NCBI GenBank assembly: GCA_001914405.1
Contig: MSDW01000001.1
Coordinates: 62,001-126,000, forward strand
Direction: 5' to 3'
DNA: 64,000 bases
Source: Candidatus Methanohalarchaeum thermophilum
GTDB taxonomy: Archaea; Halobacteriota; Methanonatronarchaeia; Methanonatronarchaeales; Methanonatronarchaeaceae
Shown here: positions 50,039 to 53,691 of the stretch, one piece after another
Layout: the number at the start of each line of letters is the position of its first letter
How positions within the stretch are numbered: the first letter of the stretch is position 1
Position numbers and translations under genes: made by a program
Notes under the pieces: model-generated
Databases searched by the model: none
The model's input: only the letters and a program-made list of their open reading frames with translations
What the model was told of the DNA's origin: nothing

Positions 50039-50407
50039 TTAGTGGTGGGTTCCTTCTCTAACACCTATTCCTTTTGATTTTATTACTTCCTTTATTGAAT
50101 CCAAGTGTGGGCATTCCACATATTCTTGTTCTTCATCGTAGAACATGCACGAACTTAAATGAACGAAATCTGGTTTTTTATCGCTTTTTTCTAGTTTTTT
50201 TATTAGTCTGCTTATTCTGCGGCCAGGGCATCCTCCACACGTAAAAAATCCTACTAATTTAGTTTCTTCATGGTAATCCTTAAATTTCTTTTTCTTTTCC
50301 TGGAAGCTGCCGAGACAACCTGAGCCTGGACATGTTTCTGAAGTTATTTCGCATCGTATTATTGCTACTTTTTGGTTTTTAGGGTTTTCTTTTATTTCAT
50401 TCTTCAT
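50039..50407 (-). CDS. CGGC-domain protein
   Basis: A 122-residue small cysteine-rich protein. KVAIIRCEITSETCPGSGC near 13, LVGFFTCGGCPGRRISRLIKK near 51 and VHLSSCMFY near 82 are the CGGC-domain hallmarks. The family is common in methanogens and other anaerobes and is thought to bind a metal or FeS cluster; no activity is established. It lies 0.5 kb from cooS with the same orientation but is separated by a family C element. Confidence 0.85.
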   Translation of the reverse strand: MKNEIKENPKNQKVAIIRCEITSETCPGSGCLGSFQEKKKKFKDYHEETKLVGFFTCGGCPGRRISRLIKKLEKSDKKPDFVHLSSCMFYDEEQEYVECPHLDSIKEVIKSKGIGVREGTHH

Positions 50408-50952: not shown

Positions 50953-52827
50953 TTATATTCCTAGTTTTTCTCTTTTTTTGTCGAGGTGTTCAAGTATTCC
51001 TTTTTTTATTTCTTCTGGATCTTCTCCGACGGCGAGTTTTCCTCCTGTTAGGTTTTCTACTTCTTCGGTTAGTAAGGAAACGACATTTTCGCTTCCTGTG
51101 ACAGGTGGGGTAGGTGAAACATGTGTGTATAGGCCGTATGCTATTGCTCCGATTGCTGCTATTGTCGCTTTTTGTTCCATGTATTCGGGTGCACTTACTG
51201 CTACTGGTAGATTGGTTGGGTCTGTTCCTATTTCTTGAGAGAGTTTGGATACTAGGTTTATTATTCTTCCTGTATCTGTACAGGTACCAAAGCTTAGGAC
51301 TGGAGGGATGTTTAGTTGGTTGCAGACTTTTTTTAGTTTTTTTCCGGCTTTTTCTTTTGCGTCTAATCTTGTTAGTCCACTTACTTGAAGTCCTGCGTTA
51401 CCACATCCAGCGCTTAAGACTAGTATATTTTCTTTGATTAGTTTTTCAGCTAGTTTATTTATTTTTTCGTCTTGTGGCCCGTTTTTGAGTGTTGTACAGG
51501 AGATCATTGCTACTATTCCTCGGATGTTGTTTTGTTTTATATGTTCTATTAATGGATCAAGTGATCCTCCTAGAGCTTTTTTAATTGATTTTGGGGAAAA
51601 ACCAGTTGTTATATCTTTTTTATATTGTGGTATATTGGTTTCTTTATTCTTTCTATTCCTATAGTTTTCTATAGCTTTGTCTATTATCTTTAGGGCTTGT
51701 TCTTCTGCTTTTTTTGGTTTGTATTCGATTCTTTCTTCTACTCCAGGTATATTGACTAGTTTGTTCACTGGGATTATTTTTGAGTTGTATTTTTCGGCGT
51801 AGATTCCTGAAGTAGGTAGGGTGCAGTTCATATCTGCTACTAAGGCATCAACTGCTCCTGTTGCTAAAACAAATTCATTTGATATCCAGTTTCCGGTTAA
51901 TCCTGCGAATATTTCATCGGTTTCGAATCTCTGCATTAATTCCTGTCCAGTTTCTATTGAACCGATTATTCTGACTCCTTTTGCTCCTGCTTCTTTTGCC
52001 TTTTGTTGTATTTCGTCTCTTCTAGCTACTTGGATTAAAGCAGCACCTATAAAAGGCTCGTGGCCATTTGGTAGTATATTAACATAGTTTTCGTCTAAGA
52101 TTCCCATATCTACTTGGGATTTGTGTGGACTTGCAGTTCCGAATAAGATATCTTGTATTTCTTCTAATAGGGTTAAAGATCCGTATATAGTGGATAATCC
52201 CATTTTAAGTGCCTTGTTTGCCATGCTTTTGTAGTCTCCGTCTACATTGGTCATTACGCTTGTGTTGACATCCATAAGTTCATGTAGAGGGCCTCCAGGA
52301 GTTAGTCCTAGTTTGTTCCATGTTTCTTTTCGTGTTTCTGGTGCTAGTTCGCTCAAGACTTCTGATGTTTCTTCACTGTCCCTATTTATTTCCTCGAGCA
52401 AAAGGTCGGATAGGTCTAGAGCTATTTCTTCTTTTTTTCTAGAGGTATCGATTCCGAATTTATTTGCTAGGTCTCTAAGTTTTTCTTCATCTTTTATTTC
52501 AAATATTGTTTCGTTTTTTGCTGTTGCTTTTAGGGTTTTGGCGGCTGTTTTTGCGTGGTATGTGTAGGCAGAGGTTCCCATTGTGTTTATTCTAACGAAA
52601 TTTCTCATTACCATTCCATCTTTATCTATTCCACAAACTCCTCTTTCTGCATTTTTTGTTATTCTACAGGGCCCATTACTACATATATTGCATCTAATTC
52701 CTTCTGAACAAAATTTGCATCTTGTTGGTTCCTGGGATTCAAATCGGTCTTTTACATTTGTTATTTTATCTTCTTCGACTTTTTCGTACATTTCATTTAT
52801 AGAGTCGTGATAACTTACTTCCTCCAT
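50953..52827 (-). CDS. cooS: anaerobic (Ni) carbon monoxide dehydrogenase, CooS type
   Basis: A 624-residue monofunctional CO dehydrogenase that interconverts CO and CO2 with low-potential electrons. The N-terminal Cys array CKFCSEGIRCNICSNGPC (residues ~37-54) holds the D- and B-cluster ligands. The C-cluster region is seen as NILPNGHEPFIG, ADMNCTLPTSG, LSAGCGNAGLQVSG near 450 and LSFGTCTDTGR near 485. No acetyl-CoA synthase subunits or CooF/hydrogenase are nearby, so electron partner and role (CO oxidation, CO2 reduction or detoxification) are open. Divergent from a V4R regulator across 126 bp containing a 16-bp palindrome. Confidence 0.94.
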   Translation of the reverse strand: MEEVSYHDSINEMYEKVEEDKITNVKDRFESQEPTRCKFCSEGIRCNICSNGPCRITKNAERGVCGIDKDGMVMRNFVRINTMGTSAYTYHAKTAAKTLKATAKNETIFEIKDEEKLRDLANKFGIDTSRKKEEIALDLSDLLLEEINRDSEETSEVLSELAPETRKETWNKLGLTPGGPLHELMDVNTSVMTNVDGDYKSMANKALKMGLSTIYGSLTLLEEIQDILFGTASPHKSQVDMGILDENYVNILPNGHEPFIGAALIQVARRDEIQQKAKEAGAKGVRIIGSIETGQELMQRFETDEIFAGLTGNWISNEFVLATGAVDALVADMNCTLPTSGIYAEKYNSKIIPVNKLVNIPGVEERIEYKPKKAEEQALKIIDKAIENYRNRKNKETNIPQYKKDITTGFSPKSIKKALGGSLDPLIEHIKQNNIRGIVAMISCTTLKNGPQDEKINKLAEKLIKENILVLSAGCGNAGLQVSGLTRLDAKEKAGKKLKKVCNQLNIPPVLSFGTCTDTGRIINLVSKLSQEIGTDPTNLPVAVSAPEYMEQKATIAAIGAIAYGLYTHVSPTPPVTGSENVVSLLTEEVENLTGGKLAVGEDPEEIKKGILEHLDKKREKLGI

Positions 52828-52881
52828 CTTTTCCCTCGAGTTGTTTTTTTGAGGGTGCCCCTACATAAACCTTTCGTGAGA

Positions 52882-52897
52882 ATACGAACTTTCGTAT
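52882..52897. promoter_or_regulatory. 16-bp palindrome between cooS and the V4R regulator
   Basis: ATACGAA-CT-TTCGTAT, a perfect 7-bp inverted repeat with a 2-bp spacer. A further half-site-like CTTTCGT lies at 52871-52877. It sits in the 126-bp divergent region, 55 bp before the cooS start. A TTTAGTAAAC-like TATA candidate for cooS lies just upstream of it on the minus strand, so a bound protein could block cooS initiation. Likely the operator of the adjacent regulator (inference). Confidence 0.6.
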
Positions 52898-52953
52898 GTT
52901 TACTAAATAACGCCCTTAATTTATTTTATACCAAAAATCTAAATTAATGATCA

Positions 52954-53691
52954 ATGAAAAAAGAGAAAAAGCCAAAGATATATTCAACAGAAAACGGAGC
53001 AGTAACAGTTAAAAGCCCAACAAAATTAAGTATCCTTTCTCTACTAGAAGAAAGAGAAAGAACAGGTAGAGAGATTAGAGAAAACATAGATAGATCAAAA
53101 TCAACTATATCCGTTCATCTATCAGATCTAGAAAAGAGAAATTTAATCAAAGAAAAACAACACGAACAAGACAAAAGAAAAAAGATCTATTCACCTAAAT
53201 TCACTTTCCTAGGCGAATCCAAAATCCCATTCGACGAACACTATGAAAAGATACTCAATAACTTTAATAAGGCAAGTGGAAACAAATACGAATTTTTAAA
53301 GACATTATTCCACACTATAAGATACGGTTTAAGCTCATTTGGATTCGATATAAAGCCAGCGCTCAAAGAGATGGGCCACGATATTGGAGAGAAGATTGCA
53401 GAAGATATGCAAGCAAAAGACATGAACCAGGTTCTTATAGAAATAAAGGAATTCTGGGATAAAAATGGCTTAGGAAAAATAAAAATTATCGAAGAAGACT
53501 TAATAGAAATAGAAGACTGCTTTGATTGCAGCAGAATGCCAAATGTAGATCAAACTCTCTGCTCACTAGACGAAGGAATAATAGAAGGTATTATCGAGAA
53601 AAAACTCGGAATTGAAAACGAAGTAACTGAAACAAAGTGCCATGGCCTTGGAAACGATGTTTGTGAATTTAAAATAAAAATTAATGACTAA
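52954..53691 (+). CDS. winged-helix transcriptional regulator with V4R domain
   Basis: A 245-residue protein with an ArsR-like winged helix at residues 18-85 (ILSLLEERERTGREIREN; STISVHLSDLEKRNLI is the recognition helix region) and a C-terminal V4R domain. The V4R end carries conserved cysteines: EDCFDCSRMPN, DQTLCSLDEG and ETKCHGLGNDVCEF. These could bind a metal, FeS cluster or small ligand, giving redox or gas sensing. Its divergent placement next to cooS with a shared palindrome suggests it controls cooS, and perhaps itself. An upstream TTTATTTTATACC gives a TATA box about 30 bp from the start, consistent with a nearly leaderless mRNA. Confidence 0.85.
   Translation: MKKEKKPKIYSTENGAVTVKSPTKLSILSLLEERERTGREIRENIDRSKSTISVHLSDLEKRNLIKEKQHEQDKRKKIYSPKFTFLGESKIPFDEHYEKILNNFNKASGNKYEFLKTLFHTIRYGLSSFGFDIKPALKEMGHDIGEKIAEDMQAKDMNQVLIEIKEFWDKNGLGKIKIIEEDLIEIEDCFDCSRMPNVDQTLCSLDEGIIEGIIEKKLGIENEVTETKCHGLGNDVCEFKIKIND

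Follow-up and report, generated by a model that had tools for sequence, protein, structure and literature searches.

A gene annotated as cooS in Candidatus Methanohalarchaeum thermophilum lies divergent from a gene for a winged-helix regulator with a V4R domain, and the short gap between them carries a palindrome. What does this regulator sense, and what does the enzyme beside it do? The window analysed here is a 64 kb stretch of the organism's genome (G000, 2.14 Mb), whose mcrA match (905 bits) identifies the host as a methanogen. Its class is represented by three genomes (G000, G001 and G002) in the searched set. Both open reading frames (ORFs) of the divergent pair lie where they were first described, the cooS-like ORF at 50953-52827 (minus strand) and the winged-helix/V4R ORF at 52954-53691 (plus strand), with an intergenic gap of 126 bp.

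Identity of the enzyme and the regulator

The cooS product (624 amino acids) matches both the anaerobic CO dehydrogenase (CODH) model TIGR01702 (797 bits, the sole match to this model in G000) and the Prismane family PF03063. Its best match in the PDB is 7b7q (733 bits), and the next best reaches 404 bits. We take 7b7q to be CooS-V of Carboxydothermus from its length and its Glu295 motif, as the search table prints only 'carbon monoxide dehydrogenase'. The C-cluster cysteine Cys295 of CODH-II, which is Glu295 in CooS-V (PMC9311411), is replaced by Glu292 in the window protein (codon at 51952-51954, minus strand), where the motif reads GSIETGQE versus GSIESGQE in 7b7q. All hybrid-cluster ligands other than Cys295 are present: His256, Asn334-Cys335, Cys444, Cys475 and Cys516 correspond to His259, Asn337-Cys338, Cys449, Cys480 and Cys521 of CooS-V. 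The set of five cysteines and one histidine that makes up the C-cluster of a functional CooS is incomplete owing to Glu292. The cysteines of clusters B and D are shared with CooS-V of Carboxydothermus hydrogenoformans (clade D; PMC9311411), and the equivalents of His93 and Lys563 are retained.

CooS-V neither oxidizes CO nor reduces CO2 and contains a hybrid Fe/S/O cluster; its activity as a hydroxylamine reductase is very low, and NO reduction went undetected (PMC9311411). The original prediction of a monofunctional Ni-CO dehydrogenase does not survive this comparison: given the same exchange at Cys295 as in CO-inactive CooS-V, the window 'CooS' is probably not a CODH and is better described as a CooS-V-type (clade-D-like) member of the prismane/CODH family. 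The prediction had also remarked on the lack of an electron-carrier or hydrogenase partner nearby. Indeed, no hydrogenase, CooF or CooC gene adjoins the window cooS, and this absence is expected because the enzyme is of the CooS-V type. The protein also resembles Hcp (hydroxylamine reductase), with which it shares the PF03063 superfamily and, by prediction, a hybrid Fe/S/O cluster. In sequence, however, it is CODH-like, scoring 48-49 bits against the Hcp models (48 bits for TIGR01703), far below the cut-offs of 361 (TIGR01703) and 367 (NF003658). Profile scoring found no Hcp gene in G000 or G002.

Downstream (3') of cooS lies a gene for a CGGC-domain protein, possibly metal-binding (window 50039-50407; gap ~545 bp). 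It also follows cooS in G002 (L055 8151-8669; gap ~52 bp), where it has an additional N-terminal stretch of ~50 amino acids. This protein may be functionally linked to the CooS-V-type enzyme.

The neighbouring regulator (245 amino acids) scores 254 bits against the NCBIfam equivalog MsvR (NF053755, cut-off 220). Pfam places an ArsR-type winged helix (PF01022) at residues 21-66 and V4R (PF02830) at residues 184-242, and gives only these HTH and V4R domains, with no haem- or other CO-binding domain. Cys203, Cys229 and Cys237 align with C206, C232 and C240 of MaMsvR, and the window protein additionally keeps a CX2C motif (Cys189, Cys192). Judged by sequence, the V4R regulator is MsvR, a member of a known family of thiol-based redox repressors. 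The MsvRs tested so far respond to DTT/H2O2 through three conserved V4R cysteines; MaMsvR binds TTCG-N7-9-CGAA only if reduced, binding is reversed by H2O2, and Cys206 is important in the switch (PMC3729527).

The original prediction had offered CO, redox or metal state as the signal for a V4R sensor different from the known haem-based ones. The protein belongs to a described family, so that neither an unknown kind of regulator nor a new type of CO sensor is needed. The redox part of the proposal stands, as V4R cysteines control DNA binding in MsvR (PMC3729527), whereas the CO part does not. CooA and RcoM are likewise transcription regulators beside genes for CO enzymes, but as haem-based sensors of CO (PMC9670170) they differ from the window regulator, which lacks such a domain.

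The window pair resembles the MsvR systems of Methanothermobacter and Methanosarcina (NF053755; PMC3729527) in its winged-helix/V4R architecture with three V4R cysteines, in the TTCG-N7-9-CGAA boxes that those msvR genes carry at their own promoters and that also occur in the window gap, and in the divergent redox-enzyme partner (as in msvR/fpaA). It differs in its partner, which is of the CooS-V type and not an F420H2 oxidase, and in its operator, which is a tandem double repeat.

A predicted tandem operator and its conservation

The gap contains a predicted MsvR operator of the form TTCG-N8-CGAA-N2-TTCG-N8-CTAA at 52873-52906, TTCGTGAGAATACGAA-CT-TTCGTATGTTTACTAA. It consists of two TTCG-N8-CGAA inverted repeats (motif as in PMC3729527) in tandem. 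Unit 1, TTCGTGAGAATACGAA (52873-52888), starts 46 nt upstream of the cooS ATG; unit 2, TTCGTATGTTTACTAA (52891-52906), has a degenerate final half-site, CTAA, with one mismatch. A 34-bp match of such quality would be expected by chance 0.02 times per 64 kb. The palindrome first reported, ATACGAA-CT-TTCGTAT at 52882-52897, was correctly located, and its arms are perfect, with the CT spacer accounting for two mismatches against its own reverse complement. As a free-standing operator it can be dismissed, since it consists of the inner half-site of each unit and forms the centre of the longer element.

Two candidate TATA boxes flank the operator. That of cooS, TTTATGTA (52862-52869, minus strand), separates the operator from the start of cooS and matches in position the ATATATTTA-like stretches of relatives, whose clearest TATA-like sequence for cooS is likewise situated downstream of the repeats and ahead of the cooS start. 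The palindrome had been placed between the TATA box and the start of cooS; the relatives suggest the reverse, with the repeats upstream of the TATA-like sequence. The candidate msvR TATA box, TTTATTTTATA (52920-52930, plus strand), is located ~30 nt upstream of the msvR ATG.

The three-box core TTCG-N8-CGAA-N2-3-TTCG occurs once in the 2.14 Mb of G000, at the window locus, and once in G029, likewise between cooS and msvR. G000 has 36 TTCG-N7-9-CGAA sites; nearly all of the 35 read lie inside ORFs and no other site has the three-box form, so we do not claim a genome-wide MsvR regulon in this organism. The motif alone is insufficient in any case, as in M. acetivorans MaMsvR left a TTCG-N8-CGAA site within rpoK unbound; oxidative-stress promoters were not bound either (PMC3729527).

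Related loci were retrieved with an alignment query (a single-protein query gave none). Adjacent divergent cooS/msvR pairs occur in halophilic Thermoplasmatota (L288-L292) and in G029, a member of family f11 (presumably Methanocellaceae). Counting the window, G002 and L294, a true msvR has a CooS-V-like gene in the ~2 kb upstream of it at nine loci, and at each of these a TTCG-N8-CGAA repeat starts 34-46 nt upstream of cooS. L289 and L290 have the full double unit without mismatch, the final half-site of unit 2 included, and it has one mismatch in the window, L288, L291 and L292. As a control, the 200 bp preceding each of 40 cooS genes that are not beside msvR (32 of them in genomes with msvR; some starts approximate) contain no TTCG-N7-9-CGAA. 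Most of the CooS-V-like genes found (in Archaeoglobaceae, f36 and f16) do not lie beside msvR.

Two of the nine loci separate the genes. In G002, cooS and msvR have a GNAT acetyltransferase gene (L055 10650-11210) between them; the repeat is on the cooS side of this gene, and no TTCG-N8-CGAA precedes msvR. In L294, two ORFs separate the genes and the repeat remains at cooS. The neighbourhood and the motif, whose recurrence in relatives was the proposed check, are therefore both conserved, the pair recurring in several lineages. The motif stays with cooS across lineages at 34-46 nt, which supports the assignment of regulator and motif to cooS. The third genome of the class, G001, has no CooS above cut-off. 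It encodes a weaker MsvR (143 bits; L057 6341-7048), whose gene is preceded by TTCG-N8-CGAA and runs divergently from that of a small zinc-ribbon-like protein.

Descent and partners of MsvR

In the CooS tree, the window's lineage groups with the halophilic Thermoplasmatota (support 100/100), and it does so again in the MsvR tree (100/99). Because both trees join organisms of different major lineages, the simplest account would be that the pair was transferred as one unit between hypersaline archaea. The MsvR family has been described as methanogen-only, whereas matches to the NF053755 equivalog, close relatives of the window regulator, are found here in halophilic Thermoplasmatota as well. MsvR thus extends beyond methanogens, if these carriers are without mcr.

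The CooS proteins checked at four of the Thermoplasmatota loci (L288, L289, L291 and L292) all carry the Glu exchange. Because of this, it may be unsafe to infer CO utilization in halophilic Thermoplasmatota from the annotation of cooS.

In the MsvR tree, the cooS-linked MsvR of G029, whose CooS has Asp at position 295, is sister to Methanocella-type MsvRs (G020, G011 and L295) encoded divergently from a genuine Hcp gene, identified in G020 and G011 by NF003658 (>820 bits) and in L295 by a phmmer match to that Hcp. In Methanocellaceae, Hcp takes the divergent position next to an orthologous msvR that the CooS-V-type gene holds in the window. The partner within one regulator clade is thus Hcp in some genomes and a CooS with an altered active site in another, both of the prismane superfamily. 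Further msvR genes face a flavodiiron protein, rubrerythrin or MsrB, and this range of partners, by analogy, suggests defence against redox or nitrosative stress. The upstream partner in L182, considered as a peroxiredoxin, is an ATP10-domain protein and was dropped from the argument. In three Methanocella-type loci with divergent msvR and Hcp genes (L164, L166 and L295), two TTCG-N7-CGAA repeats lie near msvR with an 18-bp period.

None of the papers searched combines MsvR with CooS-V or Hcp; one of them covers both MsvR and CooS, but separately. In a 2026 survey, ~10% of clade D CODHs are linked to regulators, V4R not being named, and co-occurrence with HCP is high. A recent survey finds no clear gene pattern for clade D CODHs (PMC13056359). 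Clade D 'CODHs' are widespread, inert towards CO where tested and without a known role. The conserved pairing with a characterized redox repressor, and the fact that Hcp takes the enzyme's place beside an orthologous regulator, suggest a role in oxidative or nitrosative stress.

A probable redox-stress module and its alternatives

Taken as a whole, we consider it likely that the pair is an MsvR/CooS-V redox-stress module, in which a Hcp-like stress enzyme is derepressed by a change in redox state. We infer binding and repression at the window locus, the inducing signal and the enzyme's real substrate as follows. MsvR with reduced V4R cysteines would bind the TTCG-N8-CGAA repeats in the shared gap and repress both cooS and msvR itself. 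Oxidation of these cysteines would release MsvR and allow the neighbouring enzyme to be made, and this CooS-V-type hybrid-cluster protein probably removes an oxidant or a nitrogen-oxide-type compound, as Hcp does. Unlike CooS-V of C. hydrogenoformans, the window enzyme has a dedicated redox regulator as its neighbour.

The reading closest to the original prediction, a V4R-based CO sensor in control of a working monofunctional Ni-CODH, is very improbable. It can draw on the TIGR01702 label of anaerobic CODH, on the retained His93 and Lys563 equivalents and on a review stating that related halophilic Thermoplasmatota encode CO utilization (PMC11332174). Yet Cys295 is Glu, as in CooS-V with its lack of CO oxidation and CO2 reduction (PMC9311411), the regulator has no haem or other domain for CO, genes for CooF, CooC or a hydrogenase do not adjoin, and in Methanocella regulators of this clade face Hcp. 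CO sensing is thus unlikely because the regulator is MsvR and the enzyme has the CooS-V exchange, and we rejected this candidate on active site and regulator identity. It is also unlikely that the operator serves msvR only, with MsvR regulating itself and cooS a passive neighbour. Autoregulatory boxes are usual at msvR, most of them 46-57 nt upstream of it whatever the neighbour, but the repeat stays at cooS in G002 and L294 despite the intervening genes (and G002 msvR has none), its distance to cooS stays at 34-46 nt, and the same organisms are joined in both gene trees.

Alternatively, the signal could be iron-sulphur or metal status, with MsvR reading a V4R-bound metal and CooS-V serving Fe/S or sulphur handling. 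The CX2C motif present besides the three redox cysteines, the possibly metal-binding CGGC-domain protein near cooS, and the iron and cation transport genes among the motif-bearing promoters of M. acetivorans (PMC3729527) would fit such a role. Against this, tested MsvRs switch with DTT/H2O2 through the three conserved cysteines (PMC3729527), and their partners elsewhere are enzymes for oxygen, peroxide or N-oxides; we regard a metal signal as rather unlikely. Returning to the redox-stress module, a bolder version is a closed circuit, in which CooS-V both consumes the oxidant or N-oxide and sets the thiol state of the MsvR V4R domain, for example by S-nitrosylation (Hcps form S-nitrosothiols) or persulfide transfer. 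The 'dead' CODH would then be mainly a redox sensor, spread as a unit with its regulator among hypersaline archaea. This is a long shot.

A looser parallel exists in family f6, which we take to be Archaeoglobaceae. Here, a weaker V4R regulator (~110 bits) is divergent from or near another CooS, one without the Lys563 and His93 equivalents (G121, G111, G277, G080, G006 and G296, the last a fragment). These V4R proteins were rejected as MsvR, as they fall under the cut-off of 220 and as a group have no upstream TTCG-N8-CGAA. The copies in the first five genomes (L144-L148) form a second deviant CooS group beside a V4R regulator, with the Cys ligands kept, and this group is not obviously described in the literature. 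In G006 (L148 3599-9771), the residue-changed CooS gene is followed directly by that for cytochrome bd oxidase subunit I, and the V4R regulator lies ~1.1 kb upstream. Finally, in L150, L151 and L152 (G248, G253 and G193), a V4R gene, likewise not counted as msvR, precedes a canonical CooS gene in the same orientation, and it is possible that this V4R protein regulates a real CODH; in L150 and L152, a CooF-like gene lies between the two, and NuoF/NuoG-like genes follow.
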